Origin: Prosapia bicincta
Taxonomy: Eukaryota > Arthropoda > Insecta > Hemiptera > Cercopidae
DNA length: 64,000 bases
Assembly (NCBI GenBank): GCA_036971475.1
Contig: JBAIZL010000006.1
Location: 10,694,656-10,758,655 of the forward strand
Reading direction: 5' to 3'
Each line of letters opens with the position of its first letter. Within the stretch, counting starts at the first letter, position 1. Both the position numbers and the translations under genes were made by a program. Positions 21,001 through 51,560 of this stretch are shown piece after piece. The notes below the pieces were generated by a model. The model did not search any database. It was given only the letters and a program-made list of their open reading frames with translations, and was not told where the DNA came from.

Positions 21001-24000
21001 ACTGACCGAATTCACTGTACTAACAAAATTTTGTTAAATTTACTGCTGGTGCAACTGACCGAATTCACTGTACTAACAAAATTTTGTTAAATTTACTGCT
21101 GGTGCAACTGACCGAATTCACTGTACTAATAACATTTTGTTAAATTTACTGCTGGTGCAACTGAACGAATTCACTGTACTAACAAAATTTTGTTAAATTT
21201 ACTGCTGGTGCAACTGACCGAATTCACTGTACTAATAAAATTTTGTTAAATTTACTGCTGGTGCAACTGACCGAATTCACTGTACTAACAAAATTTTGTT
21301 AAATTTACTGCTGGTGCAACTGACCAAATTCACTGTACTAACAAAATTTTGTTAAATTCACTGCTGGTGCAACTGACCGAATTCACTGTACTAACAAAAT
21401 TTTGTTAAATTCACTGCTGGTGCAACTGACCGAATTCACTGTACTAACAAAATTTTGTTAAATTCACTGCTGGTGCAACTGACCGAATTCACTGTACTAA
21501 CAAAATTTTGTTAAATTCACTGCTGGTGCAACTGACCGAATTCACTGTACTAACAAAATTTTGTTAAATTCACTGCTGGTGCAACTGACCGAATTCACTG
21601 TACTAACAAAATTTTGTTAAATTCACTGCTGGTGCAACTGACCGAATTCACTGTACTAACAAAATTTTGTTAAATTCACTGCTGGTGCAACTGACCGAAT
21701 TCACTGTACTAACAAAATTTTGTTAAATTTACTGCTGGTGCAACTGACCGAATTCACTGTACTAACAAAATTTTGTTAAATTTACTGCTGGTGCAACTGA
21801 CCGAATTCACTGTACTAACAAAATTTTATTAAATTTACTGCTGGTGCAACTGACCGAATTCACTGTACTAACAAAATTTTGTTAAATTTACTGCTAGTGC
21901 AACTGACCGAATTCACTGTACTAACAAAATTTTATTAAATTTACTGCTGGTGCAACTGACCGAATTCACTGTACTAACAAAATTTTGTTAAATTCACTGC
22001 TGGTGCAACTGACCGAATTCACTGTACTAACAAAATTTTGTTAAATTTACTGCTGGTGCAACTGACCGAATTCACTGTACTAACAAAATTTTGTTAAATT
22101 TACTGCTGGTGCAACTGACCGAATTCACTGTACTAACAAAATTTTGTTAAATTTACTGCTGGTGCAACTGACCGAATTCACTGTACTAACAAAATTTTGT
22201 TAAATTTACTGCTGGTGCAACTGACCGAATTCACTGTACTAACAAAATTTTGTTAAATTTACTGCTGGTGCAACTGATCGAATTCACTGTACTAACATAA
22301 TTTTGTTAAATTTACTGCTGGTGCAACTGACCGAATTCACTGTACTAACAAAATTTTGTTAAATTTACTGCTGGTGCAACTGACCGAATTCACTGTACTA
22401 ACAAAATTTTGTTAAATTTACTGCTGGTGCAACTGACCGAATTCACTGTACTAACAAAATTTTATTAAATTTACTGCTGGTGCAACTGACCGAATTCACT
22501 GTACTAACAAAATTTTGTTAAATTTACTGCTAGTGCAACTGACCGAATTCACTGTACTAACAAAATTTTATTAAATTTACTGCTGGTGCAACTGACCGAA
22601 TTCACTGTACTAACAAAATTTTGTTAAATTCACTGCTGGTGCAACTGACCGAATTCACTGTACTAACAAAATTTTGTTAAATTCACTGCTGGTGCAACTG
22701 ACCGAATTCACTGTACTAACAAAATTTTGTTAAATTCACTGCTGGTGCAACTGACCGAATTCACTGTACTAACAAAATTTTGTTAAATTCACTGCTGGTG
22801 CAACTGACCGAATTCACTGTACTAACAAAATTTTGTTAAATTCACTGCTGGTGCAACTGACCGAATTCACTGTACTAACAAAATTTTGTTAAATTCACTG
22901 CTGGTGCAACTGACCGAATTCACTGTACTAACAAAATTTTGTTAAATTCACTGCTGGTGCAACTGACCGAATTCACTGTACTAACAAAATTTTGTTAAAT
23001 TCACTGCTGGTGCAACTGACCGAATTCACTGTACTAACAAAATTTTGAGTATTATTTACAATATGGATTCAACTACAGAGAAACATAAATATATAAACTT
23101 GTAAAACCAAAATCGTTAAAAATATCAGTTCAACTATTTTTAAAATGCTAAAGGTTTTAAGCAACATTCACCTGCGTAATGATGACTGAACTGGTAGATT
23201 CGTTCACTTTTGTGATATGTTCCATTAAAGAGTCTCGAAGCGAAGCATGAGCTTCTGTTGGCAATTCATGAAAAGATAGCTGTATTTTTGTTCTCATTGT
23301 TTGAGCTGCAAAATAACATGATTCTGTATCTGTTTGATGATGAAGCATCTCATCAGCAATCTTCCAAGCATAAACCTGAAATGCGATGTTTGATATTTAA
23401 AAAAATGTAATATTCCAGCCAATATTTTAAAAGTAAGTTAAATATATTAATTTAATTAGATTTTTACAAAATTATTTGCAAATGTAATGTTTATGATTGT
23501 TAAAAATACTATTAACATTACAAGCGATTTTTTACATACTGTCACACTATGCTATACTACTAATAAATTTGTTGAGCACAGTGGACTAATTTTTTAACTA
23601 AATAAATAAAACCCATTAACAACAATACAAAAATCTTTATTACAATTTCTCTATGTACATCTCGATTACATGGTAATTATCTTCAGAAGTACTAACTCAT
23701 AAAGAAGTGAAATAAATGTACATAAAGTAATTGTAATAAAGATTTGGTAAAAATGCAGAAGCTCGGCGAAATACGATATTTTGGGAAATGGTTTAACATC
23801 ATTAAATAGGACGATATCTACAAGAATTTTTTTTAAATTGACCTCGGAAAGTTACTTTTTTTTCAATTTAAAGTAGCGTAAAAAATTCAGCGCGGATGTA
23901 GAAGTTGTGAATAGGCGCGGAGTGATACAAATGCTTCGTGATGTTACAACTGTATTTCAATGTATAAAATTAAAACCAAACCTAACCTGACTTTACACTT

Positions 24001-27279: not shown

Positions 27280-27389
27280 ATGGCAAAAATTGTAAAGTTT
27301 TTCAAAGTAATACGAAATAATTGGAAAAAATCAACCGTAGGTAGTTTGGCTTTAATGTATGGAGTCAATTATGGGAAAGAACAATATAA
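27280..27389 (+). CDS. AGK: AGK coding exon 1
   Basis: Thirty-six codons plus two bases, MAKIVKFFKVIRNNWKK to YGKEQY, donor AA/GTATGT. It matches the family N terminus (FFK-LRN-WKK). Too short to stand out as an open frame, but the phase joins exactly to exon 2. Confidence 0.9.
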
Positions 27390-30300: not shown

Positions 30301-33300
30301 ACACTCACAGACTAACATAGACACCAATCTAAAAATCCTACACTACAACAAAAAAAAAGCAACAAATCCAACACAACAGAAAACTACGAGATATACAAAC
30401 ACCATAAATACTATCCACAACATATTCTAAATAACAAAACGCACTCACAATCAAATACTATATCTGGACACATAATTAACAATTACTCTATGAAAAATAA
30501 CACACCACAGACTCACAACACTCCTGAGTAACAGACTTGTCTGTGACTCACAGCATTAAATAATGCGCTGATCTAGTGTGAAACACATCTGCTGAAAATA
30601 TCAATAACTAGTTGTTTTTTTTTGCCAAGTTAATACCTAAAGTGAAATATATAAAAAAAATTTTGTGGTTAATAGGTTTTATTTGTTTATAATTAGTTGA
30701 ACCTAATATAATATATTAATTTAGTAGCACTTCTGTCTAAACTCAAAGTTTCATAATAAAACCGAGCACTGTAATATATTACATTACTATATAGCTGTAT
30801 TATAACGTGCTAAAAAAATGAGGTTATAATAGATTTAGGTATTAAAAAACACAAAATTAAATTCATCAATTTTAGCTAGTCACAGGTTATCTCAACAACA
30901 TATGCTGTAAGACTCAATGAATGCAGCTGGCTTACTTTTTACAAGAAAAAATTAGTTTTTGTAATAGCAAAATTTTTCTGTAACTAGATACAAGGGTGGT
31001 CCACAAAGTAACCACCGTTTGGGCGTGGCGCGTTAAGTAGTGGGGGTAGTGCCTCCATTCTCACATCGGCGTGCGCAGCCGTTCAGTATGCTTCTAGCTG
31101 TGCAAGGGAGAATACCGTAAGATAGCGCGTTCTTTTGTTATAACGTAAAAACATGAGCGCCGCGATAGAAAATCCCGCCAAGTGTAAAGTGCGAGGTGTA
31201 ATAAGATTTCTGTGGTCGAAAAGTTACACAGCAGCTGAAATTCATCGTGAATTGAGTGCGGTGTATGGCCCAAACATTATGAGCAAAGGTGTAGTCCGTC
31301 AATGGGTTTGTTTTTTTAAAAATGGAAGAACGAACGTTCACGATGAAGACCGGAGTGGTAGGCCATCTCTCGTCATTGATGACTTGGTGAACAAAGTGGA
31401 TGAGAAAATTCGCGAGAACCGTCGCTTCACAATCTCGGAACTTTCAGATCATTTTACTGAAATTTCTCGAAGTCTTGTGCATGAAGCATAGTGACAGAAA
31501 AACTAGGCTATCACAAATTGTGTGCTCGTTGGATTCCAAAAGTGCTCACCGATGATCACAAAATGAAAAGAATGAGTTCTGCCATAGACTTTCTTACTCG
31601 GTATGACGTTGAAGGAGAAACATTTTTGAACAGGATCGTTACAGGAGATGAGACTTGGGTAGCCTATGTGAATGCCGAAACAAAACAACAGTCAATGCAA
31701 TGGGGTCATACCGCTTCGCCAAGCAAGCCAAAGAAAGCTCGCCAATCCTTTTCAGCGAGAAAATTGATGACTACAGTTTTTTGGGATGCTAAGGGCATCT
31801 TGCTCGTTGAATTTATGGAGCGTGGTACGACCATTACAGCTGCAGCTTATTGTGAAACCTTAAAACGGCTATGACGAGCGATTCAAAACAAGTGTCGTGG
31901 TCTTCTGACACCTGGTGTCGTTTTTGTCCATGACAATGCCCGCCCTCACACAGCTCAAAAAACTGAACTTTTGGAAAAGTTTAAATGGGACGTTTTTGAC
32001 CACCCCCTCCTACAGCCCGGACTTGGCTCCCAGTGATTTCCATCTTTTCCCTTACATGAAGCGGTGGCATGCATCTCAGAGGTTTGCGAGTGATGAAGAG
32101 CTTCAAAACGCTGTAACAGGCTGGCTACGTTCTCAGACGGCAGATGTTTTTAATGACGGAATTTCAAAAACTGTTAAAAGATATGACAAGTGCTTGAATT
32201 TTTATGGTGAATATGTAGAAAAGTAGAGAAAAGCTGTAGTTTTAACATGTATATAATAAAATTTTTGTATCTCAACTGGTTTATTTTTTATTTTAAAACG
32301 GAGGTTACTTTGTGGACCACCCTCGTACTTTGTAGCTATATTTTAATACAATATTCTATACTAATGTACTACAATCTACAAAGGTTAAACAAGCTCAAGT
32401 AGAATTGCCTCGACTGAGGGCCTACTGAATGAAATTTCGATTGTTATCAGGCAAACAATAAAGAGCAGTATAGGACTGGAGACCTGGATATGGAGGGTTA
32501 AAGCACTTTAGGGTGACCACAACTCTCCTTTCATTACTCAACACCCATGGGCTAAATCTTTGTAGCTATAGACAGTAAGATGGTTCAAGGGCAGCCTTGG
32601 AGATATTCCTCAAATTTTCGTTAATTTTAATCTTAATTATTCCAAACTCCTTCAGAAAGAAATGCACCGACTTTGCTGGGAGACCCCTGACACTCACCTC
32701 GACATAGAAGTAGTGACAGGAGAACCCTTTCTGACAAATAGAGTAACACAAAGATTCATACTTGTTGGGCTTGTACAGACGTTGCTTCAGGATATTAGAC
32801 TCCCATACGACTGTCAGTTCCACCATTACCACTGAATAGAGTGTCAATGAGTGTGCCAGAAGATTTGGACACAAAGATGTAATGCTCAAAACAAAGATAA
32901 ACTCATAATGTCTGTTACCAGGATCCATACATATAGGCCTAATCCAATCCGTAGCCTTCCCTATAAGACGGTAGAACCTTGAATTTTGGTCTCCTCACTT
33001 TCTCACCTCTATCAAAAGCGACATGGACTGCGTGCCCTTAAACACCTTCCTCTTGGCTGAAGTAATCCCATAACTTACGACCTGCTTCAAAATCACTAAC
33101 ACCCTATCATGGCGCCAAGTGAATCGCTTTCTTGCAGATTCCGAGGGCAACAAATCAAATAGCGAGCAGTAGCAGAAGCTCCTGAGTACAAATTACACAT
33201 GCTATCTGTTGCAAGACTCCAGTGACACAGATTACTTGGATATGTCCCTTGCAAGACATTTGCATAGAATTTCAAGAGACTAATCATATATGAAGGCTCT

Positions 33301-33792: not shown

Positions 33793-34094
33793 TTGTGTGT
33801 GTATGCATGTATGATTAATAGTTATTATCTGGAGTACATCTGTTCATTCTGCTGTGCATGAAATCGCAGTTCTGACGTTTCGCTAGAATCTCATCTAGCA
33901 TTGACAAGGTAAACCTAATAACAGTTGACTTGCTCTTCAAGAGTTGTTGCGTTCACCTCGTCAATGCTAGATGAGATTCTAGCAAAACATCAGAACTGCA
34001 ATTTTATGCACTGCAAAACAAATGGATGTACTTCAGATAATAACTATTCATCATATTTTTCCATCCGTGAATGAATACGTATATATGTAAATAC

Positions 34095-34135
<41 letters not shown>

Positions 34136-34383
34136 AAAACAACATAGGTTATTCAAATACAAGAATATTTATTAATTTATATCCAAAGCTTTTCGTTGGT
34201 AAACAGTACCAACATCATCAGGAATGAAAATTACAATTTTCATTTTTACATTGTAATTTTCATTCCTGATGATGTTGGTACTGTTTACCAACGAAAAGCT
34301 TTGGATATAAATTAATAAATATTCTTGTATTTGAATAACCTATGTTGTTTTAAATTCTTAAACAAGAAAACGTATTTCATATT

Positions 34384-34450
<67 letters not shown>

Positions 34451-37400
34451 ATAATTATGGAAGTATACCACAAGGTGATATATCATAATAGTTGTGAAGA
34501 ATTCTTTGGTAAAGAAATTGTTTTAACAATGTAATTGTATTTCAAGTTATATGTTTGCAACTTTTTTATAATTTATGAATGTCATATATTATTTATAAAT
34601 GTGCTCTTGCATTATTCAGGGTTGAAAGTTTAATGCGTGATTACTGTGAAATAGCTGAACAATATGGAGATTCACCTTTACCAGTAAGCATTAAACCTCG
34701 TCATGTTGTAGTTATTTTGAATCCAGTTGCTAACAAAAGGTAGGTTTAATATTCCATTAAAATCAATTATTGTATAGTGTAGGCAATATGTATAGGTTTT
34801 TTTTCATTGTAAAATTATTTACTGATAATTTTCCTATATATGATTAATGCCAAGATCTAAATATAAAATAATATTATTATTTCTTTCCTTCTTCAACTTT
34901 GTTATTATATAGATATTTATATTAACATACCTAGCACAATGTACAAACATTCTGTGGTAACAACTACTATCATTTGGACTATCATTTCAGAAGATGTATC
35001 CATTTGTCAACTCAGACTTCATCTGATCTCTTAGATTTTCAAGTGATATAATGGAGTTAGGCAAGCTTTAGTAGGTAGTTTTGGATATTTTTAATAAAGA
35101 AATTAACAACTTGCTAAACTTATATTAACTTGGTTTTAATAGCACTTAATTCCTTTAGATAACGATTACAGGTGGCCTTTTTTTAGACATATCCTAAATC
35201 AGACTGTATCCCATTTGAGTTATAGTCTGAAATGATAATGGGATACATCTCCTGAAAAAGGTGTCCTCAAAATGCCAGTTATTAAAGAAAATTAGCAGTT
35301 ATTTAGTTCAGTTTTAGTGTTAAAGATTAAGTTATGCAATTTTTTCAGAAAAGCGAAAAATGATTTTGATAAATTTTGTGCTCCAATCCTTCATCTATCA
35401 GGACTTACTGTAACTGTATTGCAAACAACGAAGGAAGGACATGCCAAAGAGTTGGTAAAAGACTTGCCCAAGGATGCCGACACTTTAATAATAGCAGGAG
35501 GTGATGGAACCCTGTCTGAGGTAACTTATGTAAAAATTGGATGCTAATATAATTTATTTTATTTTTTAAATATAATTTGTGTGCTTTTTATTTGTTTGAA
35601 ATTTATCTAGAATCCTGTGATTATATGAAGACACAAATTTCTTAAGAAGAAAATCTTTTTATGTATTGTTTAATGTAGTTTTTTTATATTAGAAATTTTT
35701 ATAAGATTTGTACTGTAAAATAAGTCTGTTTACTTATATTTTTAAGAGTTAGTTGATAAATAGCTTGCTAAAACGATTATCATAAAGTTTGAATAAATTA
35801 TTTTATTATTATTATGTTATACTGGCACCCCATAGAGGCTTCTCCTGCATTTGTTTAAAATCGTCACTTTATATGTTAATTTAATAAATTTAAAAACCAA
35901 TAATAATTGATAATGATTATGAAATGGGAATAGAAAGTTATAATAGGGTATTATTTATTAAATAAATGTATAACTGCTGTTTTTATTTTCATGATACAGT
36001 GATGTCAGATATTTATACAGATGTATAATATTATATTCTGTTGTTTTCATCATTCACACTTATCATGGTAATCTTAAAATATTTTTTAAAAAAATTGAAA
36101 AGTATTATGTAAATAGTATAGCTTTTATTAGTAACTTACTATTTAAAAATGCAAAATTTTCCTAATATTTTCAAAAATATTTTATTTAAAACTAAATGGT
36201 GAATATTTATATTTTATTTGATAATGATTAAAATTTATGTAGTTAATAAACATAATGATTTTAACAATACGCTTACTTTCTATTTAGAACTTCTATGTAA
36301 ACTATATTTGTTGTTTTCGTAGTCGGAGACAATATTACTAAATTTTTTAAAGAGCTGACTCTAGAAAAAGCTGAGTATCAATAATTCAATTAATATTGTC
36401 AGAGATTTACAATTCAAAGTTTATTATTATCAATATTTAATACAGATTTCAAATATACATATATATTGCATACAATTATTTGTAATTAATTTTTTAAAAA
36501 ATTAAAATTTGTACATGAGCAGAACAGTAGACATATATATATTATAACTTAACTTTTGTTATAAATTAATTTATTTTTAAATGTTGTTTATTTACCTTAC
36601 CTGTTAATGTCACACCTTCAGGTTTATAAAAGAATTAACAATCTTTAAACATCACTTGCATTTATTCTCTTCAATTAACTCTACACATTATTCCACATTT
36701 ATATTAGTATTGTGCAGTGACAGGATTGACATCTTAACTATAATTACATTGATAAAAGGTGGACTTCTGAGGCTTTAGATTTCTAATAGAATAACATTAA
36801 AAAAAACAGTATTAAAATTTTATTCTTGCTCTCGGGGTCGCTATTACGGGAACTTTGCTTTTAAATTAGAATTGGCGAAACTAGAATAATTTTTATAAAT
36901 TTTGATGAAATTAAAATTTGTTTTGAACTAAAAGATAGATGTCTGTTGGCTATACTTATATTCAAATAATACTTATTGTTCTGAAGAGTCCCTGGAATCC
37001 TGGCTTTGTTCACTTCAGCGCTTACACTTGGCACACAAAAAAAACTTACTTTATATTTAAAAAAAACTTTTACGTTGCACTTTTAAAAATTACTTATACA
37101 AAAAACTCCTTACTTCATTTAATCAATTTTTCCCTTTACAACACTTCTGTCCTGGTCCCCACCAATCTGCCTGCCTTTCTCTGAGACTCTCCTCAAAACA
37201 TCCTTTAAACTTCCGATCATTTAGTTTTTATTAAAAATCTAATCTCTCCCACTACCACCAATATGTTCTTTGTAAGTTTCCCACAGTTCTACAATTAGCT
37301 AAACCTAACGGTACACGGTTATTTTCCCATGGCTATATTGGCCGCTGGATTTCCCGTCTTAACAAGCTTTGGACCTTCTATTATCAATTTGCCGGACTCA

Positions 37401-37615: not shown

Positions 37616-40600
37616 GTTAATATATTACTATTGTAGTAATTTTATCCACCATTAAGTGCAATGATTTTATCTTGAGTGATGAGGCGCCTTTCGGTCACTT
37701 GACCATTGTCGACAAGGTTCACATTTTCTAAACAAACGCCCAGGCAAGCCTTCTCCCACTACACCTTTTCTTGTGAACCTGACCAGGTTCATCCTCGAGA
37801 AGAACAACTTTCAGTTTGAGGGAAGGAACTACCTTCAAATAAAGGGAACAGCAATGGGCACCAGCGTACGCAAATCTGTACATGGGATTGTTGGAAGAAA
37901 GTTTTCTAAAGACACAAACACACCAGCCATTATGTTGGTATAGATATATAGATGACATCTTCCTAATTTGGACACAGGGTGCTTCAACACTTGAGGCATT
38001 TTTAGACAGCCTGACACAATTCTCCACACTTCAATTTACGTGGGAGAAATCTACATCAGCCATTACCTTTTTGGATGTAGAGGTAACACTCCAGAATGGA
38101 AATATCAACACAGGAATTCACATCAAACCGACAAACCACCTATAATATCTCCATTTCGACAGCAACCACCCAATAAACATAAAACGATCCATTCCATACA
38201 GTCAAGCAATCAGGGGTAAGAGAATCTGTTCGAATGATAGGGAATTGGAAGATTTTAATAGAAAGATATCAACAGCCTTCCAGAGAAGAGGATACCCAAA
38301 AAAACTCATTGAAAACCAAATTCATTCAGCACAATCCTCGGTTCACCATAAACCACAAACAGAACAAAATAAACTGTCTTTAATAACAGACTACCATCCT
38401 GGTCTACATAAACTCAACAAGATATTGAGAGATGGCTTCAAAATTCTTCAAGCTTCCGTCCACACCAAAAATCTTTTCACCGATCCACCGCAAATTTGGT
38501 ACAAGCAACCTCCCAACTTGAAAAACATCCTAGTATATCCTAAACTACCAGACCCTGATGCAGAGAAACTACACAAACTTCCTCATGGCTCCTTCCCATG
38601 CAATAAACCTAGATGCAAGACGTGTCCAATACACCCCTCAGCAAATAGTTTCAACAGCCAAACAACAAAAATGGTCTTCAAAATACAGGGTCATCATAAT
38701 TGTACATAGAAAAATGTCATATACCAGCTACAATGTAAACTTTGCTCAGCACAGTACATAGGCCTGACCACGGATGGTCTGAATATCAGAATGAATGGCC
38801 ACAGACATGATGTTAAAATTATGAATATGGATAGACCAACAGCTCAACATGCTGCGAGTCACAACATCACAACTTTTGATGACGGCTATACCACAAAAAT
38901 AATTAAATCACTCCCCCCTGATTGCAAATCCCTCAGAACTGAGAAGGTGGGAACTGTCATACCAGTGGTATACCAAGTCCAGAGAATCCCCTAACCTCAA
39001 CATCAGGTAAATCCATTTTTTTCCAAATAGCCTTATCTCTTTTCCCCTGACAGACTTATATAAACTATAATCACTCATATGCTCATGGAAACAATATATA
39101 TATCTTTAATCTGTGCATCTGTGACATCTGATTTCTACTCTACACAATCTGTGATTACAATTATTTTATTTCATTCTCTCATATTTCTTTTTGTGTTTTC
39201 TCTTCGATTGACAAAGACCACTGTGTGGTTGAAATATATCATTGTTTAAGTGCTTTTATGTGTTTCTATTTCAAGACTACAGAGTGGACTCTTACCAAGG
39301 TAAGTCTGTCAGTCTCCTAGTCCAAAAAATCTATATATATATATAAATTTACATAAGCCCTACCCCCCATGTATCTTAACATCTGGCGCTGGCCTATTTT
39401 CTCATAACAAGTTATAATAATTATAGACTTTTGGAATTTTTAGTCTTTAAATCAACATTTTGCAAAACCACTTTCTTAGTGTGTCTATATTATGAACTGT
39501 ATGTACATTGAAAATTTCCAATTTGTATCTTTCATAGTATCTACTCTAAGTTGATTCTTAGTCAGTCACTCTGGACAATATATAAATTATAATACACGCC
39601 CAGTATTTTAAAAGTTTAAAATTTTTAAGTAGGTGGACACAAGAAGCAAGAGTAGGCGTGCACCAATAGGAAGTGAGGTCTGGAAGTGGTGGAGGGCGTG
39701 GCTAACGGTATATAAAGACGAGCTCAAAATTTGGGCGACCAGTATTATTTAAGTTTTGAAAATGGAGTTAATTCGAAACGTGGCAACAGAAGAGAATATT
39801 GAAAAGTAAGGAATGGCAGAAAAATGTACTCAAACATATAATAAAACCCTTCTTATCCAAAATAATTGGGGCAGAACCATTTTAGATAAGCAATGGTAGG
39901 TGTTTTAAGATATATTTCTTCAAGTAAAATACATAAAATCTGTTTTACTGTAAATATTACAGTAGTTGTATTTTCTGGTAACTTTTCTCCTGTACCCCTC
40001 AGCACAGTTGTTTACCATATTGGTATATGAATCACGGCACAGGCCGATTTGGGCTGTTGGGTCATCAACCGCACTTTGTGGCGGGCGCTTCTGACGTATT
40101 TAAGGAAATTTTCTATACTTGGCCTAGCGTTTTGGTTAAGGGAAATTTGGATAAGAGGGGTTTTACTATACCTTTAAATTTAAGCAATTTGATTTAAACC
40201 GCATTTTTATTCTTATCTGGTAATCTTATTTGATGGATATAATCTGGTAACTTCAAGCTTATATTTTAAAAATAATTTTGTTTTAGGCGGTTACTGGATT
40301 AATGCGGGAATACAATGGAAAGTGCTTGTATAAAATTGGAGTCCTTCCACTAGGCAGAACAAACTCTGTAGCTTATGGTTTACTTGGAGAAGATTCTTTT
40401 CCAGTTAAATTGATGGCTGATGCAACAATGAATATTGTTAGAGGAGAAACAGAGCTTTTAGATGTATTACGCATTGATCCCCTAGAGGTATATAGAGAAT
40501 AAAAGTTTCTTTTTTATTGTTTGTAACTTCTTTTCATTTCAATTTGAATAATTGTGCTTTGTTTGGTGGTAAGTTGTGTCTGTGATGTTTGAGAGAGCAA

Positions 40601-43600
40601 ACTTCTTAAACTAAATTAGTTAAGAGGCATTCAATTAATTGAATTCATTGAAAGTTTTTCCTTTAAAATATCAACATAAAGCAATATGGCAACAAGGATG
40701 AAACTCAAAGGCATACTAAAATATTTTAAAGGTACTAAAGATTTCAGGTGAGTGATATAAAAATTCAAACTTGAATATTTGTTTATAACAATATTTTGAA
40801 GCATATCTTATACCTCAAATTGTAACTATTAGCCCTCATCTATCCCTTTCCTTCCATCTTGTGACAGTTGCACAGAGAACAAATATCCGAGGCTGCTGAT
40901 CTTATTTTATATAAGTGGGCTTACAGATAGTCATGATCCATAAGCATTTTGAATCTGGCAACAGCTTCCACTCTAGGTAGGCTATGTGGTATTAGCACTA
41001 TGTGCGCCAGGCCCTTCCATATCTTTAGCCGGTACTCTTTTTTTTTGGCTTTCCCTTGTTTTTTCATTGATAGTTGATTCAATCAGGCCTCTTGCTGTCG
41101 GTAGATATATAGTATAGTCAGGCGATGGCAAGGTGACACCTTTCTTCGCTAATTGGTCTGCGCGTTCATTTACCTCAATGGCAACATGGCTAGGGAGCCA
41201 TTGTAACAATGTAGCACCCTTCAATCATGCCTGACAGGGCCTTTCACCCTGTCATTGTTTGCACACATTTGATGGCGGTATTACTAGTTAGTGCGGCCTG
41301 TGAATCCTCGAAGAACACAACTTGTGCAGACTTGCTGGAGATTGAACAAAGTTTTTCGGCAGTTTGTACTATTGCATTATTTATTAAAACATTATGAGGC
41401 AAAATGTATTTTTTTGCATTCTTTAGTCAAGGTAAATAAATAACTTTATATCCATTTTAAAAATTCTTCTTCCTATAACTCTCACTTGGCTTACGCCATT
41501 CGAGATCTTGCCTCCCAATACAATCCAGGTATGTCTCTTCGTTGTTGTCATTCCTTACTTAGTCCACTGCAGACCAGGAGGTGATCTTTGTCTATAATAG
41601 ATGATTGGCATGCAGATGTTGTGCACCTCTTGGTTTCTAACTAAAAGTTGTTCTTTTTTTAAAACTACTAATCATATTCCTATGATTGAATTTAGAGTGA
41701 AGACAGTTCTGCAAAGCCAGTTTATGGACTGAGTGGTATAAAATGGGGCGCTTACAGAGACGTGGAAAGGAAACAAGACAAATATTGGTATTTTGGGCCG
41801 TTACGAGGCTATGCAGCAGTGCTTTTCAGTGGTTCGACCAAGGATAAAGTTAATGCACAGATTGCATACACACCTCCATGTTCTGGTTGTTCAAAGTGTT
41901 ATGCAAGTAGACCTGAGTTACAACCTCCTGAAGTGAAGAGGCAGTGGTGGAAGTATCTGATACCAACTGTTGGTAGAAGAAAAGGTTAGAGCAAATATTT
42001 TACATCTACTGTGATATAATATGTCATAAATATGCAAAATTATTAACTATATGTTGTTTATACAATATACATTACTACAAATATTGTATTGCTTCAATGT
42101 TATTATACCCTATGCGACAAAATAAACTACTGAAACAGTTGTAAGTTTTATTTACATAGGTTCACAAACTAATACAAGTAAAAACAAGCTAAATCGGTTA
42201 GATTCAGGTATAAACATGTTCTGTACCACCTTCATTCAATTTGAGGCAACACTAATACAGTTTTTCATTTTAATAAAGAGGGGTTGTTTTATGCTTGTTA
42301 TAAACATGGTTGTTTTTCCTGTTTTTGGATGATGGTGGTTGGTGGGTCATTATGGAAAATCTTCCCCTTTATCATTCCCCAGATGTAGGTGTCAGATCGG
42401 AGGAGTGGGATGGGTTAGTGTTTGTACTAAAGAAAATGAGGCAGTTGCCAGATGTTTCTTGAAATAAGCCATGTTGTCTAAGGCTGTGTGGCTGATTGTG
42501 CCATCTTGCTAGAACTATTGTGAACCAAAAGGCAAGTTTCAGCCACAACAAAATTCCTTGAGGTTTCCTATAAAGTGACCGAGAATGACTATATCTGAGA
42601 GAAGGCAACTACAGCTGATTCAGTTTTAGTACTGTTTATTTTGGTGCATATGGTACAATGTATAATAATTGTATTATCCAGTATAAAATGTTATTATACA
42701 TGGCAATAGTATAAAATTAAAAACCCCTTTTAGAAATAATCTTTTACTTTTTGAAAAATAATTCTTCATTATTGAGTCTTCTAATAGATCATACAAAGAT
42801 GGTTTCTCTGAGAGAAACCTATACCATTTGTCTCCACACATACTGGCCCTCTTAAAGTATGTAAAATAGATTAGCTTCAGCTATCTTATCATTTCAACAT
42901 TACATTCATATACACATTGACAATGTATATTTGGATCTACTGATATTTTAGCCAATTAAACTATATATAAAATAATAAATTACGGTCAGTCTTGTCTAGA
43001 AAATAACCTGGTTCGTCATCATAATATAGATACATAAATAGAAGAAATATAACTCTTATTGTATTTTAAAGGTATAGTTGTCCTCTATATATGAACTTGA
43101 AGAACAAACTGACGTTTTTTACTGATGTGGCCAACTTCAAAACTCGTCTATGATGAGTTTATTTTTGTGTTACATTCCATTAAAATAAAATGTTTATATT
43201 TTTGTATAAAATACAAATTATTTTTTGCCTTTGTTGGAGTTATGGTCTATGAAACTTATTCCTTGACATATTTTATCATGTATAATAATTTTACTTGATC
43301 AGTTGTTATTTTAACAATAATCTTTTATTATTAATTTTTTAAATATTTTTTAGCTACTGAACCTACTATAGATTACTCAAAAGTTATTAACGAAGAGTGT
43401 GGATTTATTTCTTTAAAACAGATTGACTCACTGGAGTTTAATCTTTCAACATCAAATATCAACCCAGACACTCAAGGAGTTAGACTATCAATAGGTGAGT
43501 ATTTTTAAATTAATATAAATTGGTTATCGATATAATTTCTATAATATACAAGTTATATCTTCAAAATCTATACAGAGCACAGTAATGTAATTATAATAAC

Positions 43601-46600
43601 TAAACCACAATAACCCTTGCTACAAATATTTAAATATCTGTAGCAAGGGTTATTGTTGTTTTATTAAGTTATAAATTAATTAAAACTCAGGATAATCTAT
43701 TAAGTAATTTATTTGTACTTAATTTATTCAAGTACAATATTCCATTATGACTGTAGTTTATGAGTTTCGACCTCAGTAGATAATAGAGTCATCTACTGAA
43801 ACAGCTGCAGTGGAGTCCCAGGTAATCCGAGTGTTCGTTTAATCCGAAACAGAAATTAGGATATTTTTAGCAATTAAAAAAACTAAGAAAAAACAGTTAA
43901 TAAGTGTATTATGAGCTCAAAATTACACTATGTTTCTAAGATAGCCAGTAAAATGAACAAAAAAAAACAATGTTATATGTAGTTCTAAACTATATAGGTT
44001 TAAAAAAGTCTTTTACATTTCTGTGCCAAAGAGAAGGAGACCTCTCTTTGAAGCAAAATTACACGAACGCCTCAGAAACAATTTATTCACCAGGGTCGAG
44101 GTTAATTATTTTTCTATGTAGTGCAGCGCTATATCAAATGCAGCTACAGCATCCGAGTGGGGGTACTCTCTGCTCGCTGTTGTCGTCTCCCTCACCTTAA
44201 TTCTCATCAGAGTTGTCTGGTTCTTTAAAAAACATTTCAACGATCTGCTGATTGTTTAAAACTTCATGATTGTTGTCATCCACAATCATTTGTATTTCCA
44301 TCCTCATAGCCAGGAATCTTTTGTGTCAGATATTGCATGAAAGAGGTTATATTGGGTGGTGGAAAACGGGCTATATATTTCCACAAACTAACTCGTCATG
44401 TGAAGTAACATTGTCTAGAAAAAATAAGGCACAATTTGGTAAACCATTTTCTTTACAAAATCAAGTAGCTTCGGGAACAAAGTGGGTATTAAAGCATCCC
44501 TTAAATAGTTGTGAGGTTATCAAAGCATTGTTGGAGTTTTTGTAGGTGACAGGTAAGGCATTTACATTTAGGTTCTTGAATCCCCTTGGTTTTGCTGCTT
44601 TAGCAATAACCATAAGAGGAAGTTTATGATTTTCTGCCCCATTGTTACAGACTAAAACCGTTAATTTTTCTTTGCTATTTTCAAACCTGCTGCATGTTTT
44701 ATTCTTCAACAGCCATACTTGTTTTTAACACGCCTTAAAGTTAATGCCAGTCTCATCTGCAAAATATATTTGCTGCAGTGAATAGTTCCCTGCTTTAATC
44801 CTTATTAACCCTCATTAGACAATAGCTGTTTCCCAGTAACGGAACACATGCTGTGACATTTCTTAAAACAATTAGACCAACCTGTGCTAGCAGAAAAAGA
44901 TATGTCTCCATTCAATCATTTTAGAGCTTTTTTTTTAATCAAGGGCCCACTAATTAGATACCTTTCTCTCTCTCTCTTAAACCAAACAAACATAGCACTG
45001 TCAAGCTTCTCCAGTGGTGTGGTTTTTGCTGTTTGGTGAGATTCAGTACACTTGCTTGTATTATATTTTTGACGTTTTAGGATACTCATTGGTTTTTTAG
45101 TACATTGTATTTAATAATTATTTTAATTTTATTAATAATTCTACTTAATCCGAAATAGGTCTGGTCCCAATCTTATCAGACTATCGGGACTCCACTGTAT
45201 TTATCATTAAAACAAAAAGTAAACTCAGTGTTTTGAAGTGTTGACATATTAATATATCTCGGTGTGTTTAAATTGAAAATTATTTTTTTGAGCTGTGCTT
45301 TGTTGTATTTAGTAAGACGTGTTTTTTATTGTGTGAAATTTGGCAGGACCTCCCAGTCAGAACTTCATACAATTTCTGCAAGAGGGTTGGAGTAGAATGA
45401 ATGGAAATAAAGGGCAAATTTTTGAGTCACTAGATGCCCAACAGATAGAAATATTGCCTGGTGATGAGCAGGTCTGTAATATTTAATCAACTCAATAGTT
45501 TACAAAATATAAGAATAACTTAATGAAAGAACTACTTAATGAAACAGCTGGTTTCATTTTACAGCCTTTCCTAACACATTCAGCATGGCGGCGATATTGG
45601 AGATCTCATCAAACTACTGTCTGTTTTTTTTTGTTAACTTCCACATATGGCGGCAGTGGAATCATTGAAAGGCTATGCGGGTTGCATAGCTTGTCGTTGC
45701 ATCTAATTATCGTGCCTATTGTTTTCATCTCAATAATTTTATTTCTACCATATACACGTTTATTGGGGACATTAAAACAGCGTATTAGACATTAAAATAT
45801 TGTTTTATTTATCGGGTCACAAAAAAAAAAAAATACAAATGATAAAATACTGTATGACAAATAATATAACTCAATAAAAAAAAAGAGAAAAAAAAGATAA
45901 TTTACATATAAATCTAAAGTACCTACTACTAAAATATACTAAATACTAAAATAAACCACTCAACTCGGAATGTTTGTTTCGTGTTTCAAAAAGCGATAGA
46001 ATTCGATAATGTAAACGCAGACATAGATAATGCATATGTCACGTCCGAGACTATTTATAGCAGAGATTAGCTGACATTTGTTTACTACAATCTTATGATG
46101 ACACATTAGGTTTTCGGACATCCAAGAATTTTGTCAATGACTCATATTTACAGTAGTCTGTTCTCTTCTCAAGTAGCTTCATTCACTGTAATAGGACAGT
46201 TATCGTTTATTCTTGCGTTAGTTCAGAAAGCTTAGTTTATTTTCATAATCGTTCTTTTACCAGATATTTTGCTGCTTTATGTGGTTAAAACTAAAAAGAA
46301 CATTAAAATATAAAAGTTAAACCAAATTAAATTTGTTCATAAAACTCCCTGAAGCATTATTTCAGTTGAAGCATGAAAAAGTTAACTTGGGATGGTCGGA
46401 TTTAAAAACTACTCAGCCACAATGTTCGCCAAACTCTTCTGACGTAAAAATCAAACCTTGATATAAACACTTATCGACACTAGAGAAGCTTTAATTAGAC
46501 CAGTGCGCTCGCTGCCTCAGAAGGGAAGCTGGGACTGCACCGGCACGCTCTCAGTGCCTCGTAAGGGTACCCAGAATGTGCCGGTATGCTAGCCATGCTG

Positions 46601-47688
46601 AACGTGTTATTGAAACTTACAGCATAAACAAAACTCTTTACAGATAATAACAGGTTTTCTATTTCCCTCTTAAGTCTTGAGTTCAAGCCTTTATAAAAAT
46701 ATATGCTTTACTATAAGTAGCCTTTACCATGTTGTTGGATGTGAATTATTATTCAGAAGTATCCCATATTTTCACATTGAATTACAATTTGAAAAGAAAA
46801 TGGAACAAATCTTTTGAAATGTCTATCCTTATAAGTAGTATGAGGAACATGTTGTTTATAACCTATTGCAGATCTCTTACATGCGGACATTATCAGGTAC
46901 GAATTAATTCCATGCATCAATTTAGTTGTATTTCACTATAAAAATATTCTCACTTATAAAGCACAAAATATATTTTTTATACAGGTCCAATTTTATTCAT
47001 TTGTTATTTTTTACCTAAGTTACTTTATTATTTGTTAATTACTTATTGTGTAGTCATAATTAGTAGCAACAAATTAAATGTTACTTACGGTTTGCTTTAG
47101 AATCTAGGCACCCACTATTGTTCATTTTGTATGTACACAAGAATACACTAATTATAAAAAAATATTTACACTACTGACCAACACTGAGTAAAACCTATAC
47201 TGAGTTTCTCACTCCAGTTGACATAAAAACTGCTAAAGCATTCTATTGTCGTCATTTATTCAATACTACCTGGGCTAGTCTTATACCCACCAATAAATTG
47301 TCGTAACTAGCTGAATTAGTCTGTAAACCGCAATGGGTTAAACGACAGAAGATAATTTTTTAATCTTTTAAACATTTATATTATTTACTTACAATTATTA
47401 ATTTAAATGAAATTTGTTCTAGATTCACATGGCTACAAAAGTTGATGCTTACTCTCAAGATTCTATGTTATAGTTTTACTACATAAATGACATTACATGT
47501 TTGAATTAGATTACTAATTTATCTTGACATTAAATGTTGTGTAACTATAAATCGATTAATAAATTTTTGTTTCATAGAAAACTGAAGACAAGTTTCTGAG
47601 TATAGATAATGAAGAATATGAAGTCAGGCCTATTAGAATAACATTGCTTTCTAAGTGTGTAAAAGTATTTGTTGCAAACTCTAGGTAA
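27280..47688 (+). CDS. AGK: Acylglycerol kinase, mitochondrial; complete coding region in eight exons
   Basis: Gene-level entry. AGK phosphorylates mono- and diacylglycerol at mitochondria to give lysophosphatidic and phosphatidic acid; in animals it is also a TIM22 import-complex subunit. The eight exons total 1269 bp (422 codons plus stop), the length I recall for the human protein. Seen features: an N-terminal basic patch and short hydrophobic stretch (KVIRNNWKKSTVGSLALMYG), the DAGK-type catalytic start VVILNPVANKRKAK (about 67-80), APILHLSG (about 88-95), the nucleotide-binding GGDGT loop (about 127-131), GVLPLGRTNS (about 153-162) and KYWYFGPL (about 230-237). All borders are GT/AG with matching phases. 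Introns are large and repeat-filled; intron 1 is about 7.2 kb. The last exon ends in FVANSR and TAA, and that end is copied into a downstream tandem array. Confidence 0.95.
27611..27880. repeat. Diverged tandem duplication, about 153-bp period
   Basis: ATTACTCGTTTTAATCTGTA...TAATAGCATGTATAGCGT is repeated in diverged form 153 bp downstream, in AGK intron 1. Confidence 0.6.
28330..29060. mobile_element. Dispersed repeat family 3, copy B, with terminal inverted repeats
   Basis: Left end ATATCAAGCGAC...ATACAAAAAAAATTATGAAA; right end TTTTTATAATTTTTTTTGTAT...CGCTTGGTAT, reverse-complementary. About 700 bp, non-coding. Homologous to 8795-9540. Confidence 0.65.
29370..30100. other. AGK intron 1, unremarkable part
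   Basis: AT-rich with a C run at 29449-29458. Nothing recognisable. Confidence 0.4.
30180..30640 (+). pseudogene. Relic of a retroelement C-terminal (GIY-YIG-like) region and tail
   Basis: Decayed frames read close to the 'GQTGR...KSHY...LEK-EIYKHHKYYPQHILNDQ' region of retroelements that end in a GIY-YIG nuclease. The tail (CACACCACAGACTCACAACA... and GCATTAAATAATGCGCTGA) recurs at 61715-61860. Confidence 0.45.
30991..32325 (+). mobile_element. Mariner element, full length, inactive
   Basis: TA-flanked (30989-30990 and 32326-32327). Inverted ends read CAAGGGTGGTCCACAAAGTA and CGAGGGTGGTCCACAAAGTA. The transposase begins at 31153 (MSAAIENPAKCKVRG; HTH region with AAEIHRELSAVYGP) and shows all three catalytic segments: GDETWVAYV, HDNARPHTA and YSPDLAPSDFHLF, fitting DD34D. 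It is broken by a frame change near 31485, an in-frame TGA at 31872-31874 and a one-base insertion near 32005. It lies in AGK intron 1 and looks fairly young. Confidence 0.95.
32560..33300 (-). pseudogene. Retroelement relic with an ELTVPWE-like segment
   Basis: A 120-codon frame (32566-32928) reads VELTVVWESNILKQRLYKPN, then VEVSVRGLPAKSVHFFLKEF. Upstream decayed frames give CHWSLATDSMCNLYSGA and FTWRHDRVLVIL. This order (zinc-like C/H block, TWRHD, ELTVPWE, EVG-RGFPA) is known from the C-terminal region of some animal reverse-transcriptase ORFs. Many stops. Confidence 0.5.
33732..33801. repeat. (AT)n then (GT)n microsatellite
   Basis: About 23 AT units followed by GT units. It abuts the hairpin at 33811-34054. 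Confidence 0.95.
33811..34054. repeat. Hairpin element, about 95-bp arms, between AT microsatellites
   Basis: AATAGTTATTATCTGGAGTA...TCTAGCATTGAC on the left pairs with GTCAATGCTAGATGAGATTC...CAGATAATAACTATT on the right. The loop spans about 33907-33958. Both flanks are AT microsatellites. Confidence 0.8.
34132..34354. repeat. Near-perfect palindrome, about 105-bp arms
   Basis: TTTTAAAACAACATAGGTTA...ATTACAATTTTC and GTAATTTTCATTCCTGATGA...AACCTATGTTGTTTTAAA are reverse complements over the whole length with a loop of about a dozen bases. Flanked by (AT)n tracts at 34097-34131 and 34389-34447. Confidence 0.9.
34262..34306 (+). ncRNA. Hammerhead-ribozyme-like motif in the 34.1-kb palindrome
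   Basis: Order seen: ATTC (34262-34265), CTGATGA, one extra T, stem II GTTGGTA/TACCAAC (34274-34280, 34286-34292), GAAA, a tiny stem III AAGCTT, then T and GGAT (34303-34306), which pairs with ATTC. This fits a minimal type I hammerhead except for the extra base before stem II. Activity unproven; it may be inactive. Confidence 0.4.
34389..34447. repeat. (AT)n microsatellite
   Basis: About 29 AT units, directly before AGK exon 2's upstream intron sequence. Confidence 0.95.
34620..34739 (+). CDS. AGK: AGK coding exon 2
   Basis: Reads KVESLMRDYCEIAEQYG to HVVVILNPVANK across the split codons, acceptor TTATTCAG, donor AAAG/GTAGGT. It contains the start of the diacylglycerol-kinase catalytic fold. 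Confidence 0.92.
35349..35520 (+). CDS. AGK: AGK coding exon 3 (GGDGT nucleotide loop)
   Basis: Reads KAKNDFDKFCAPILHLSG to IIAGGDGTLSE, acceptor TTTTTTCAG, donor GAG/GTAACT. GGDGT is the hallmark ATP-binding motif of the lipid-kinase family. Confidence 0.96.
35521..37557. other. AGK intron 3, unremarkable part
   Basis: AT-rich; no exon or element that I can support. Confidence 0.4.
37558..37612. repeat. (AT)n microsatellite at the PLE border
   Basis: About 27 AT units immediately before the PLE copy; a similar tract borders the PLE debris at 49630-49700. Confidence 0.95.
37613..39345 (+). mobile_element. Penelope-like element, 5'-truncated and decayed
   Basis: Contains RT motifs FILEKNNFQFEGRNYLQIKG, GTAMGTS and RYIDDIFLIW (YIDD catalytic box; 37740-38145), a linker (38245-38709), and a GIY-YIG-type endonuclease block (about 38715-39000; IYQLQCKLCSAQYIGLTTDG, GHRHDV). 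PLEs pair RT with this nuclease. Stops and frame changes break it. The downstream part (39170-39320) matches 49200-49340 and, reversed, 50030-50180, so it is the element's terminal repeat region. Confidence 0.85.
39837..40170. mobile_element. Tigger-like MITE, family 7
   Basis: Ends TAATAAAACCCTTCTTATCC and, reversed, TAGTAAAACCCCTCTTATCC, flanked by TA. About 330 bp, non-coding, 117 bp before AGK exon 4. Confidence 0.7.
40287..40487 (+). CDS. AGK: AGK coding exon 4
   Basis: Sixty-seven codons, AVTGLMREYNG to LLDVLRIDPLE, acceptor TTTTAG, donor GAG/GTATAT. LPLGRTNSVAY is the family's second conserved nucleotide/substrate block. Confidence 0.95.
40975..41400 (-). pseudogene. LINE RNase H domain relic
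   Basis: Minus-strand frames read VVFFEDSQAALTSNTAIKC, then LLQWLPSHVAIEVNERADQL, both RNase H signatures (catalytic D in EDSQAAL, H in PSHV, NERAD). Only this domain remains; frameshifted. Confidence 0.7.
41696..41984 (+). CDS. AGK: AGK coding exon 5
   Basis: Ninety-six codons plus one base, SEDSSAKPVYGLSG to TVGRRK, acceptor AATTTAG, donor G/GTTAGA (a weaker donor). Contains KWGAYRDV and KYWYFGPLRGYAA, conserved in AGK, and a cysteine cluster PCSGCSKCY that I do not recall from vertebrate AGK. Confidence 0.93.
42110..42620 (-). pseudogene. Mariner-like transposase relic
   Basis: On the minus strand WQDGTISHTALDNMAYFKKH resembles the QDGA-AHT...M segment of transposases, followed by traces of RSDLTPT. 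Otherwise decayed. Confidence 0.4.
42620..43353. other. AGK intron 5, unremarkable part
   Basis: AT-rich, nothing recognised. Confidence 0.4.
43354..43494 (+). CDS. AGK: AGK coding exon 6
   Basis: Reads ATEPTIDYSKVINEECG to GVRLSI, acceptor TTTTTTAG, donor G/GTGAGT. Phases fit exons 5 and 7. No ATG in frame. Confidence 0.88.
43591..43674. repeat. Short hairpin, about 38-bp arms
   Basis: CACAATAACCCTTGCTACAA...TGTAGCAAGGGTTATTGTTG, nearly perfect with a loop of a few bases. In AGK intron 6. Confidence 0.75.
43808..45197 (-). mobile_element. Tigger/pogo-type DNA transposon, decayed
   Basis: Ends CAGTGGAGTCCC...GGTAATCCGA and, reversed, CAGTGGAGTCCCGATAGTCT; TA follows the right end. The minus-strand transposase remnant includes IYFADETGINFK (first catalytic D, about 44740-44775), then KLTVLVCNNGAENHKLPLMV and PVTYKNSNNALITSQLF (44461-44709). 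Stops disrupt it. 1390 bp. Confidence 0.85.
45347..45471 (+). CDS. AGK: AGK coding exon 7
   Basis: Reads GPPSQNFIQFLQEGWSRM to ILPGDEQ, acceptor TTGGCAG, donor CAG/GTCTGT, phase 0 at the end. It begins about 150 bp after the end of a Tigger-like insertion. Confidence 0.88.
45571..46611. mobile_element. Possible TTAA-type element with short inverted ends
   Basis: Left TAACACATTCAGCATGGC and reversed right TAACACGTTCAGCATGGC are matching ends; flanking TTAA sites would have mutated. A GC-rich imperfect duplication lies at 46500-46600. No transposase seen. Confidence 0.45.
47578..47688 (+). CDS. AGK: AGK terminal coding exon with TAA stop
   Basis: Thirty-six codons plus stop, KTEDKFLSIDNEEYEV to FVANSR, acceptor TTCATAG. 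SIDNEEYEVRP matches the family C terminus (SID-EEYE--P). The stop sits inside AGGTAAGAT, so the same bases read either as Arg-stop or as a strong 5' splice site. The TAA stop gives 422 residues, the family length, and I favour it. From about 47631 onward the exon is repeated in tandem. Confidence 0.88.
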   Translation, partial: KTEDKFLSIDNEEYEVRPIRITLLSKCVKVFVANSR

Positions 47689-48992
47689 GATCAATTCTAT
47701 AAGAATAACATTGCTTTCTAAGTGTGTAAAAGTAATTGTTGCAAATTCTAGGTAAGATCAATTCTATAAGAATAACATTGCTTTCTAAGTGTGTAAAAGT
47801 ATTTGTTGCAAACTCTAGGTAAGATCAATTCTATAAGAATAACATTGCTTTCTAAGTGTGTAAAAGTATTTGTTTCAAATTCTAGGTAAGATCAATTCTA
47901 TAAGAATAACATTGCTTTCTAAGTGTGTAAAAGTATTTGTTGCAAACTCTAGGTAAGATCAATTCTATAAGAGTAAGAATAACATTGATTTCTAAGAATG
48001 TAAAAGTATTTGTTGCAAACTCTAGGTAAGATCAATTCTATAAGAATAACATTGCTTTCTAAGAGTGTAAAAGTGTTTGTTGCAAACTCTAGGTAAGATC
48101 AATTCTATAAGAATAAGAATAACATTGATTTCTAAGAATGTAAAAGTATTTGTTGCAAACTCTAGGTAAGATGAATTCTATAAGAATAACATTGCTTTCT
48201 AAGTGTGTAAAAGTAATTGTTGCAAACTCTAGGTAAGATCAATTCTATAAGAATAACATTGCTTTCTAAGAGTGTAAAAGTATTTGTTGCAAACTCTAGG
48301 TAAGATCAATTCTATAAGAATAAGAATGACATTGATTTCTAAGAATGTAAAAGTATTTGTTGCAAACTCTAGGTAAGATCAATTCTATAAGAATAACATT
48401 GCTTTCTAAGAGTGTAAAAGTGTTTGTTGCCAACTCTAGGTAAGATCAATTCTATAAGAATAACATTGATTTCTAAGAATGTAAAAGTATTTGTTGCAAA
48501 CTCTAGGTAAGATCAATTCTATAAGAATAACATTGCTTTCTAAGTGTGTAAAAGTATTTGTTGCAAACTCTAGGTAAGATCAATTCTATAAGAATAACAT
48601 TGCTTTCTAAGTGTGTAAAAGTATTTGTTGCAAACTCTAGGTAAGATCAATTCTATAAGAATAAGAATAACATTGCTTTCTAAGAGTGTAAAAGTATTTG
48701 TTGCCAACTCTAGGTAAGATCAATTCTATAAGAATAACATTGCTTTCTAAGAGTGTAAAAGTGTTTGTTGCAAACTCTAGGTAAGATCAATTCTATAAGA
48801 ATAACATTGATTTCTAAGAATGTAAAAGTATTTGTTGCAAACTCTAGGTAAGATCAATTCTATAAGAATAACATTGCTTTCTAAGTGTGTAAAAGTATTT
48901 GTTGCAAACTCTAGGTAAGATCAATTCTATAAGAATAACATTGCTTTCTAAGTGTGTAAAAGTATTTGTTGCAAACTCTAGGTAAGATCAAT
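47631..48992 (+). repeat. 67-bp tandem array derived from the AGK last exon, 20 copies
   Basis: Twenty occurrences of GGTAAGAT spaced 67 bp (some 73 bp, from an extra AAGAAT). The first copy is inside the coding exon (ATTAGAATAACATTG to the stop). Every unit carries CTCTAGGTAAGATC or a close variant, so the array repeats both the coding end and a splice-donor-like site. Confidence 0.97.
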
Positions 48993-49105
48993 TTCAAGAC
49001 ATACAAATTGTTCACTTAAAATCCATGTTTGAAAATTTTATTGCTTTTGGTGTTTGACATGCAGATCTACTAAATATAGTGGGTGGTACACTTATACGTT
49101 ACTGA

Positions 49106-49111
49106 AATAAA
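49106..49111 (+). terminator. Possible AGK polyadenylation signal AATAAA
   Basis: First good AATAAA on the plus strand after the 67-bp array. If used, the AGK 3' UTR would be about 1.4 kb and consist almost wholly of the array. Inference only. Confidence 0.3.
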
Positions 49112-49199
49112 ATTGATTGTAGCTGTGTGTTAAATAGTTTCAATGATTTAAGTGTGTCTCAACCCTTCCCTTGCCTTTTGATGTATATGTCTAGAAAAA

Positions 49200-49899: not shown

Positions 49900-51560
49900 A
49901 ATTAATTCAGTGATTCGACAATGGTCAAGTGACCGAAAGGTGCCTCATCACAACAAGGTAAAATTATTGCACTTAGTGGTGGATAAAAGTATTTACAATA
50001 GTAATATATCAACTTCATATTTATATAGCAATTTTTGGACTAGATAGGAGACCGACAAACTTACCTAGTGGCAATAGTCCAAAACGGCAATCTCTTGGAA
50101 ATAAATAAATAGACACATATAAAAAACTTATCACACTACTGAAATATTTCGATCAAAATGATCTTTGTCAATCAAAAAAGAAAAGACTTAAGTGAACCAC
50201 AGATGTGTATAAATATCCAAATGTCACAGATTCGCAGTTTATGACATAGTGCTATATGTGATTTGTATAAATATTGATTATTTGAAACTAGATATTAATA
50301 GTCTGTCAGAAGGAAGGTAAATGGAGTTGTTAAAAATGGTAGAAGTTAGGGGGAAGGTAAGTTTTATCTGATGTTGAGGTTCTATAGATTTGGTGTACCA
50401 CTGGTATGACAACTCCCATTTTCTCAATTCTGAAGGGTTGCTAACAGGGGGGAGTGCCTTAATTATTTTGGTGGTATAACAATCATTGAAGGATATGATG
50501 TGACTAGGAGCGTGTTGAGCGGATGGCCTGTCTATGTTCATGATTCCAACATTATGTCTGTGGCCTTTCATTCTGATCCTCAGACCATCCGTGGTAAGGC
50601 CTATGTACTGTGCCAGGCAAAATTTACATAGCAACTGGTATATTATATTTTTGGAATGTACAAGTATGATGAATGGATGTACCCTGAATCTTGAAGTCCA
50701 CATTGGTTACTAGGCTATGGAAACTATTTGTTGGGATGTGTATTGGACATGTCTTGCATCTAGGTCTATTACATGGAAAGGAGCCATGAGGCTTGGATCT
50801 GGTAATTATGGATGTACTAAAATATTTTTCAAATTAAAAGGTTGTCTGAACCAAATATGTAGTGGATTTGAGAAAAGATCTTTGGTGTGGATGGAAGCTT
50901 GAAGCCATCCTTTAATATTTTGTTCAACTTTTGTAGGTCTGGATGGTAATCTGTAACTAAAAACAGTTTTTGTGTTCCATAGGTGGTCTGGGTTCATCAG
51001 ATGATTGAGCTTAGCGGATTTGATCCTCAAAAAATGATTAGGATATCCTCTTTTTTGGAAAGCTAGTAAGGTCTTTCTATTAAAGTCCTCCAATGCTATA
51101 TCGATGGAACAAATTCTCTTGCCCAGATTGCCTGACTGTATGGTATGGACCTTTTTATATTCATAGGGTGGTTGCTATTGAAATTAGATATTGTAGATGG
51201 TGTGTCGGTTTGATGTGGATGCCTGTATAGATATTCCCATCTCTGATTGTTACATCTACATCCAAGAAGGTAGTTGTAATTCGGCCACAGAAAGAATCTC
51301 AGCTTTTCTGGATTCATATATTCAACCTTTGGTGAAAAACCTTCAATCATACATTCAGGATACAAATCATTTCATAGACCGTCTCAAATACCCGTACCAC
51401 TACCTCCTGAAACAATTTTGGTCACCATAGTGTTATACGAACATCCCTCATGCACATATTCTATCAGCTCTCAAAAATTTCCTCAACAAACTTAATTCCT
51501 CAAAACAACAAAAATTTGGACGTTTGGGATCAAAGTAATAAAATTTTTCTTTGTTGACCT
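49900..51560 (-). mobile_element. Second Penelope-like element copy, reversed, decayed
   Basis: On the minus strand a GIY-YIG-type block (50278-50703; IIYQLLCKFCLAQYIGLTTD, GHRHNVG) follows the linker (50806-51093; EDFNRKTLLAFQKRGYPNHF) and RT C-terminal traces (51096-51400). Close to the copy at 37.6-39.3 kb but independently broken. The terminal region at 50030-50180 matches 49200-49340 inverted. Confidence 0.85.
49910..49951 (+). ncRNA. Hammerhead-ribozyme-like motif at a PLE terminus
   Basis: GTGAT (49910-49914), TCGACAA, one extra T, stem II GGTC/GACC (49923-49926, 49931-49934), GAAA, short stem III AGG..CCT, C, then ATCAC (49947-49951), the exact complement of GTGAT. PLEs are known to carry hammerheads with very short stem III. 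The box TCGACAA departs from CUGANGA, so this copy may be inactive. Confidence 0.4.

Follow-up and report, generated by a model that had tools for sequence, protein, structure and literature searches.

The 64,000-nucleotide stretch of Prosapia bicincta contig JBAIZL010000006.1 analysed here (the window) carries on its + strand the gene for acylglycerol kinase (AGK), whose coding end, stop codon included, forms the head of a tandem array of near-identical units. Rebuilt from its exons by homology and splice junctions, the gene runs from 27280 to 47688 in eight exons and comprises 422 codons, which bears out the identity and length proposed in a first-pass annotation of this DNA. Homology extends over the whole protein and identifies it as AGK: human AGK (PDB chain 7cgp_B) is matched at E 1.8e-38 by a query made of part of the exons, and the closest protein found comes from the spittlebug Clastoptera arizonana, whose AGK gives a 68% match over 99%. 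A search of the organism's own 2.2-Gb assembly returned nine matches, eight of them these exons and the ninth a 32% match elsewhere, indicating a single locus; the same own-genome search found no AGK retrocopies or processed copies that would reveal the mature mRNA.

The coding sequence ends in AGG-TAA, and the TAA at 47686-47688 is most likely the true stop because the C termini of homologues finish at or near the same point, in support of the annotation's choice of stop. Of 676 homologues, the listing covers 120; in 101 of these the protein runs three residues or fewer beyond the end of the window AGK and in only 3 it runs 15 residues or more. The Clastoptera protein finishes one residue before that end. 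We also note that Homalodisca vitripennis has two AGK proteins (P0018 and P0004) with unlike C termini, one with a QPQT end and the other with QPQTYYTLLERALLGCC.

The array itself spans 47630-48993, unbroken within one contig, with a period of 67, 20.0 copies and 92% matches as measured by Tandem Repeats Finder (TRF). The motif AGGTAAGAT, which contains the AGK stop, occurs 20 times on the + strand of the window, always inside the array, with a single occurrence on the - strand; of the 19 intervals between the + strand copies, 15 measure 67 bp and 4 measure 73 bp. The end of the gene has thus indeed been duplicated into a satellite of 67- and 73-bp units that starts from AGK coding sequence, as the first-pass annotation had stated, although its "20 times downstream" needs correction in one respect, in that the motif count and spacings hold but the first unit is the gene's own copy, leaving 19 extra ones. 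The units vary at 11 of 67 columns and four of them carry a 6-base insertion, whereas units 3, 5, 14, 15, 19 and 20 are mutually identical and differ at one position from the gene's own copy. Mean unit-to-unit differences fall to 1.71 at a lag of five units and 1.89 at a lag of ten, and the remaining lags up to 9 give 2.75-3.70; since units five apart are most alike, the array has grown partly through the copying of five-unit blocks. With its homogenised, head-to-tail units of tens of bases the array is a minisatellite, and one private to this gene: a search of the 2.2-Gb genome with the unit matched 20 places (genome match counts for the unit being lower bounds), all at the AGK locus.

Unit 1 encodes part of ...EVRPIRITLLSKCVKVFVANSR, the first half of which is identical in Clastoptera AGK, and RPIRITLL, common to the two proteins, lies within the conserved coding sequence of the parent copy. 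Unit 1 thus belongs to a conserved part of the AGK coding region, and the array originated from the gene rather than the other way round. An unrelated satellite or transposon inserted beside AGK is ruled out, the parent unit being conserved coding sequence and the unit being found nowhere else. An Rfam scan of the window gave no match at gathering scores. We suggest that a tandem duplication of the end of the last coding exon (the TAA with the 56 coding bases before it and the 8 bases after it) seeded the minisatellite, which would then have expanded to 20 units, partly by block copying, with the resemblance of AGGTAAGAT to a 5' splice site being incidental and copied along with the unit.

That resemblance is nonetheless a good one by sequence. 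On a base-frequency matrix the AGK stop site reaches 9.1 bits, within the 3.5-11.0 bits of the seven AGK donors and third of the eight, and all 20 units pair with the 5' end of U1 at -9.4 kcal/mol, compared with -5.0 to -12.5 for the AGK donors. The annotation had called the site near-ideal; it is a good donor, yet not unique in the window, since among the 3282 GT sites outside the array 34 equal or exceed its score and 21 its strength of pairing with U1. In-register acceptors (TCTAG/G, the slash marking the junction) score 3.2-5.8 bits in the five units scored, inside the -0.4 to 10.1 spanned by AGK's own seven acceptors. No acceptor ahead of the poly(A) signal is stronger than the one at 49065 (ATGCAG/ATC, 7.6 bits), which lies beyond the array and outscores six of those seven; its score is matched or exceeded by 92 of the window's 3254 AG sites.

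The register of the units determines what splicing within the array would do to the protein. All 19 stretches between successive donors start with GTAAGAT and end with TCTAG, and whichever of the 19 in-register acceptors the first donor is joined to, the computed product regains AG/G-TAA and the ending VFVANSR-stop. As each unit is bounded by AG/GT in the same register, splicing between units would remove whole units, rebuild the stop and leave the AGK protein unchanged. Including these 19, 21 downstream AGs yield VFVANSR-stop by computation; the other acceptors within the array would change 1 to 18 residues at the C terminus, those at CTAAG yielding SSV, SRM or SRV endings and the rest endings up to 18 residues longer, and joining the first donor to 49065 would add a 14-residue tail, STKYSGWYTYTLLK. 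The earlier proposal that use of the donor bypasses the stop and makes C termini vary is consequently rejected as the usual effect of in-register splicing within the array, where the computed junctions rebuild the stop, and it survives for out-of-register acceptors.

Downstream of the stop, nine poly(A)-type hexamers were sought and none occurs between 47560 and 49072; an AATATA lies at 49073 and the first AATAAA at 49106, which is 1417 bases past the stop now and would be about 120 without the extra units. Because this first AATAAA lies beyond the array, AGK transcripts probably cross it, and the array, as part of the stretch from the stop to the first canonical poly(A) signal, would be carried in AGK pre-mRNA. 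The 20 or so U1-type sites that the annotation placed in this interval are indeed there, 20 in number, and six of them fall within 500 nt upstream of the AATAAA, the distance given in PMC4889658 as the median reach of U1 protection from polyadenylation (telescripting) in Drosophila. A genome-wide control weakens the further idea that there is anything special about these sites. Three AGGTAAG motifs spaced 47-77 bases apart gave 7338 matches in the genome against 6814 for the reversed motif (matches overlap, so that these counts are not numbers of arrays), and donor-bearing arrays are therefore barely, if at all, in excess. Many of the thousands of matches are plainly minisatellites of other units. 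The genome is full of minisatellites, and in the window three long arrays cover about 6.5% (TRF); what sets the AGK array apart is its seed, a coding-region end with the stop inside AG/GT.

We think it probable, on the whole, that this is a minisatellite derived from the end of a gene with a normal TAA stop, with a layout in which units could be spliced out without changing the protein, and carried as a nearly neutral passenger that adds about 1.3 kb to the 3' untranslated region (UTR), is partly spliced out, or both. Several observations weigh against this. The ten-column donor block is invariant over all 20 units, but so are 3 of 58 ten-column stretches, and the invariance is within expectation for young, little-diverged units. 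The sequence that follows the AATAAA at 49106 is richer in GT than that after any other of the 136 + strand AATAAA in the window, by an index that is an ad hoc count of GT-rich words devised for this very signal, and with AATAAA occurring once per 471 bases here, one about 120 bases from the collapsed gene end is not striking. The donor at the stop and the acceptor at 49065 rank high beside those of AGK itself, and a 1.36-kb tandem array, seen here in a single haplotype, is the kind of sequence in which assemblies err. An assembly artefact, in copy number or in the array as such, nevertheless seems very improbable, given that 11 of the unit's 67 columns are variable, that four units bear an extra 6 bp, that the differences follow a five-unit pattern and that the contig runs unbroken through the array. 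That U1 bound to these sites blocks polyadenylation at 49106 or retains the RNA in the nucleus, the array being kept for this, strikes us as improbable too: the uniform pairing and the six units within reach of the AATAAA speak for it, but a passenger is favoured over a selected U1 array because spaced AGGTAAG triplets are not enriched and the constancy of the donor columns is explicable by the youth of the units.

The high-ranking splice sites lead to another explanation, in which AGGTAAGAT marks a true exon end, splicing to 49065 extends the protein by STKYSGWYTYTLLK, and the array consists of 19 decoy exon–intron boundaries in a last intron of 83 nt before the expansion and 1380 nt now. The 47684-49065 junction stays open and ends at a TAA that overlaps the AATAAA, and the tail shares a four-residue match, YTLL, with that of one of the two Homalodisca vitripennis AGK proteins. 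This match is weak and was chosen post hoc (one as good turns up in 147 of 20000 shuffles and in 59 of 25163 stretches of the window), and the Homalodisca tail itself matches the same species only, whose other AGK protein lacks it. Moreover, the closest homologue is without a tail and tails of 15 residues or more are as rare among the listed homologues as noted above; acceptors as strong as 49065 recur in the window at the count given above; when the C-terminal 57 residues of the tailed form served as query, at limited sensitivity, the single match among 5 candidates was the Clastoptera protein (P0001), which covered 67% of them; and no homologues of the 14-residue tail were found in searches of limited sensitivity. 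We regard this explanation as unlikely. Slightly less doubtful, and still tentative, is an extension of the gene-end minisatellite reading in which the units would form a ladder of 19 nested, stop-regenerating mini-introns, removable from AGK mRNA in any whole number so that 3'-UTR lengths vary widely around one protein, and in which copy number and U1 occupancy would tune 3'-end processing.

The arrangement has counterparts elsewhere. In the model of Rogers (1989), tandem duplication of an AGGT-bearing exonic segment leaves the peptide unchanged after splicing, and vertebrate ATP2A1 (Hellsten et al. 2011) is a case of intron gain of this type (both as described in PMC4974935). By its sequence features the AGK array has the Rogers layout, and splicing between its copies would likewise, by computation, leave the peptide as it was; unlike those cases, its AG/GT straddles a stop codon, it has 20 copies rather than two, and it is known from sequence alone. 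Closer in form are the amphioxus "mirages", minisatellite-like tandem duplications of exon–intron boundaries in globin and Adh3 genes, whose repeats, when tested, left normal splicing undisturbed (PMC3087553). The AGK array resembles them in being a homogenised, gene-seeded minisatellite with AG/GT signals in its units, the parent unit being AGK coding sequence that bears AGGTAAG. However, the edge of a mirage is a proven splice boundary inside a gene, whereas that of the AGK array is the end of the coding region and a candidate boundary, with homologue C termini pointing against it and the acceptor at 49065 for it. Fission-yeast SPOG_01682 and SOCG_00815 contain introns built of tandem exonic units around a proto-splice site, with support from expressed sequence tags (PMC3629103); they share with AGK the tandem exonic units at such a site (AGGC in PMC3629103, AGGT according to PMC4974935) but differ in having 24-nt units inside the coding region. 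Similarly, internal tandem repeats in human duplicated genes show that expanded minisatellites can create introns via cryptic splice sites (PMC2812944); like them, the AGK array is an expanded minisatellite with the potential to form new introns, but the human repeats lie in primate segmental duplications and come with transcript evidence. In a limited literature search we found no published case of a stop codon inside a repeated proto-splice site.

The AGK array is thus real and an attractive test case for intron gain. If its units are spliced, a tandem duplication can become an intron at no cost to the protein, with the stop rebuilt at each junction; were the nested ladder to prove true, an intron would have been caught being born at a stop codon while the number of repeat copies is still changing. 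Twenty identical donor-like sites in one 3' region also offer a setting in which to test the blocking of a nearby poly(A) site by U1. If nothing is spliced, the array is a minisatellite like the many others in this genome, and its effect is a longer 3' UTR.

Table: Coordinates of the AGK exons, the array and the downstream elements in the window
Feature	Position	Strand	Basis
AGK exon 1, from ATG	27280..27389	+	homology, splice junctions
AGK exon 2	34620..34739	+	homology, splice junctions
AGK exon 3	35349..35520	+	homology, splice junctions
AGK exon 4	40287..40487	+	homology, splice junctions
AGK exon 5	41696..41984	+	homology, splice junctions
AGK exon 6	43354..43494	+	homology, splice junctions
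AGK exon 7	45347..45471	+	homology, splice junctions
AGK exon 8, coding part including TAA stop 47686-47688	47578..47688	+	homology; C terminus in line with homologues
Parent unit: 56 coding bases, stop, 8 bases beyond stop	47630..47696	+	
AGGTAAGAT: last AGK codon, stop codon and 5'-splice-site-like sequence combined	47683..47691	+	
19 extra tandem units, 67 bp (15) or 73 bp (4), AG/GTAAGAT to TCTAG/GT in register	47697..48993	+	
Possible alternative last exon, acceptor ATGCAG/ATC; from first donor adds STKYSGWYTYTLLK, stop TAA 49108-49110	49065..49110	+	
First AATAAA after AGK stop, then GT-rich stretch 49118-49131	49106..49111	+	

The window holds other repeats as well. AGK intron 1 contains an inverted repeat at 34133-34354, with two 105-nt arms that are 100% complementary, 12 nt apart and adjoin runs of AT dinucleotides; a second inverted-repeat pair (84% complementary) lies at 33810-34055. 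Tandem arrays called by TRF include a 53-bp minisatellite of 39.2 copies and 98% matches at 20972-23047, which is not derived from AGK exons, and a 21-bp array of 35.1 copies at 3964-4699 that is mostly open in several frames on both strands. Mobile elements are represented by a mariner-type transposase in AGK intron 1, spread over more than one reading frame (31144-32226; HTH_48, Transposase_1), and by pieces of a LINE-type element at 13482-16226 with endonuclease, reverse transcriptase and RNase H. Open reading frames at 37683-38994, in AGK intron 3, and at 50278-51174 on the - strand look by eye like Penelope-like pieces, the three pieces tried being without a Pfam match.
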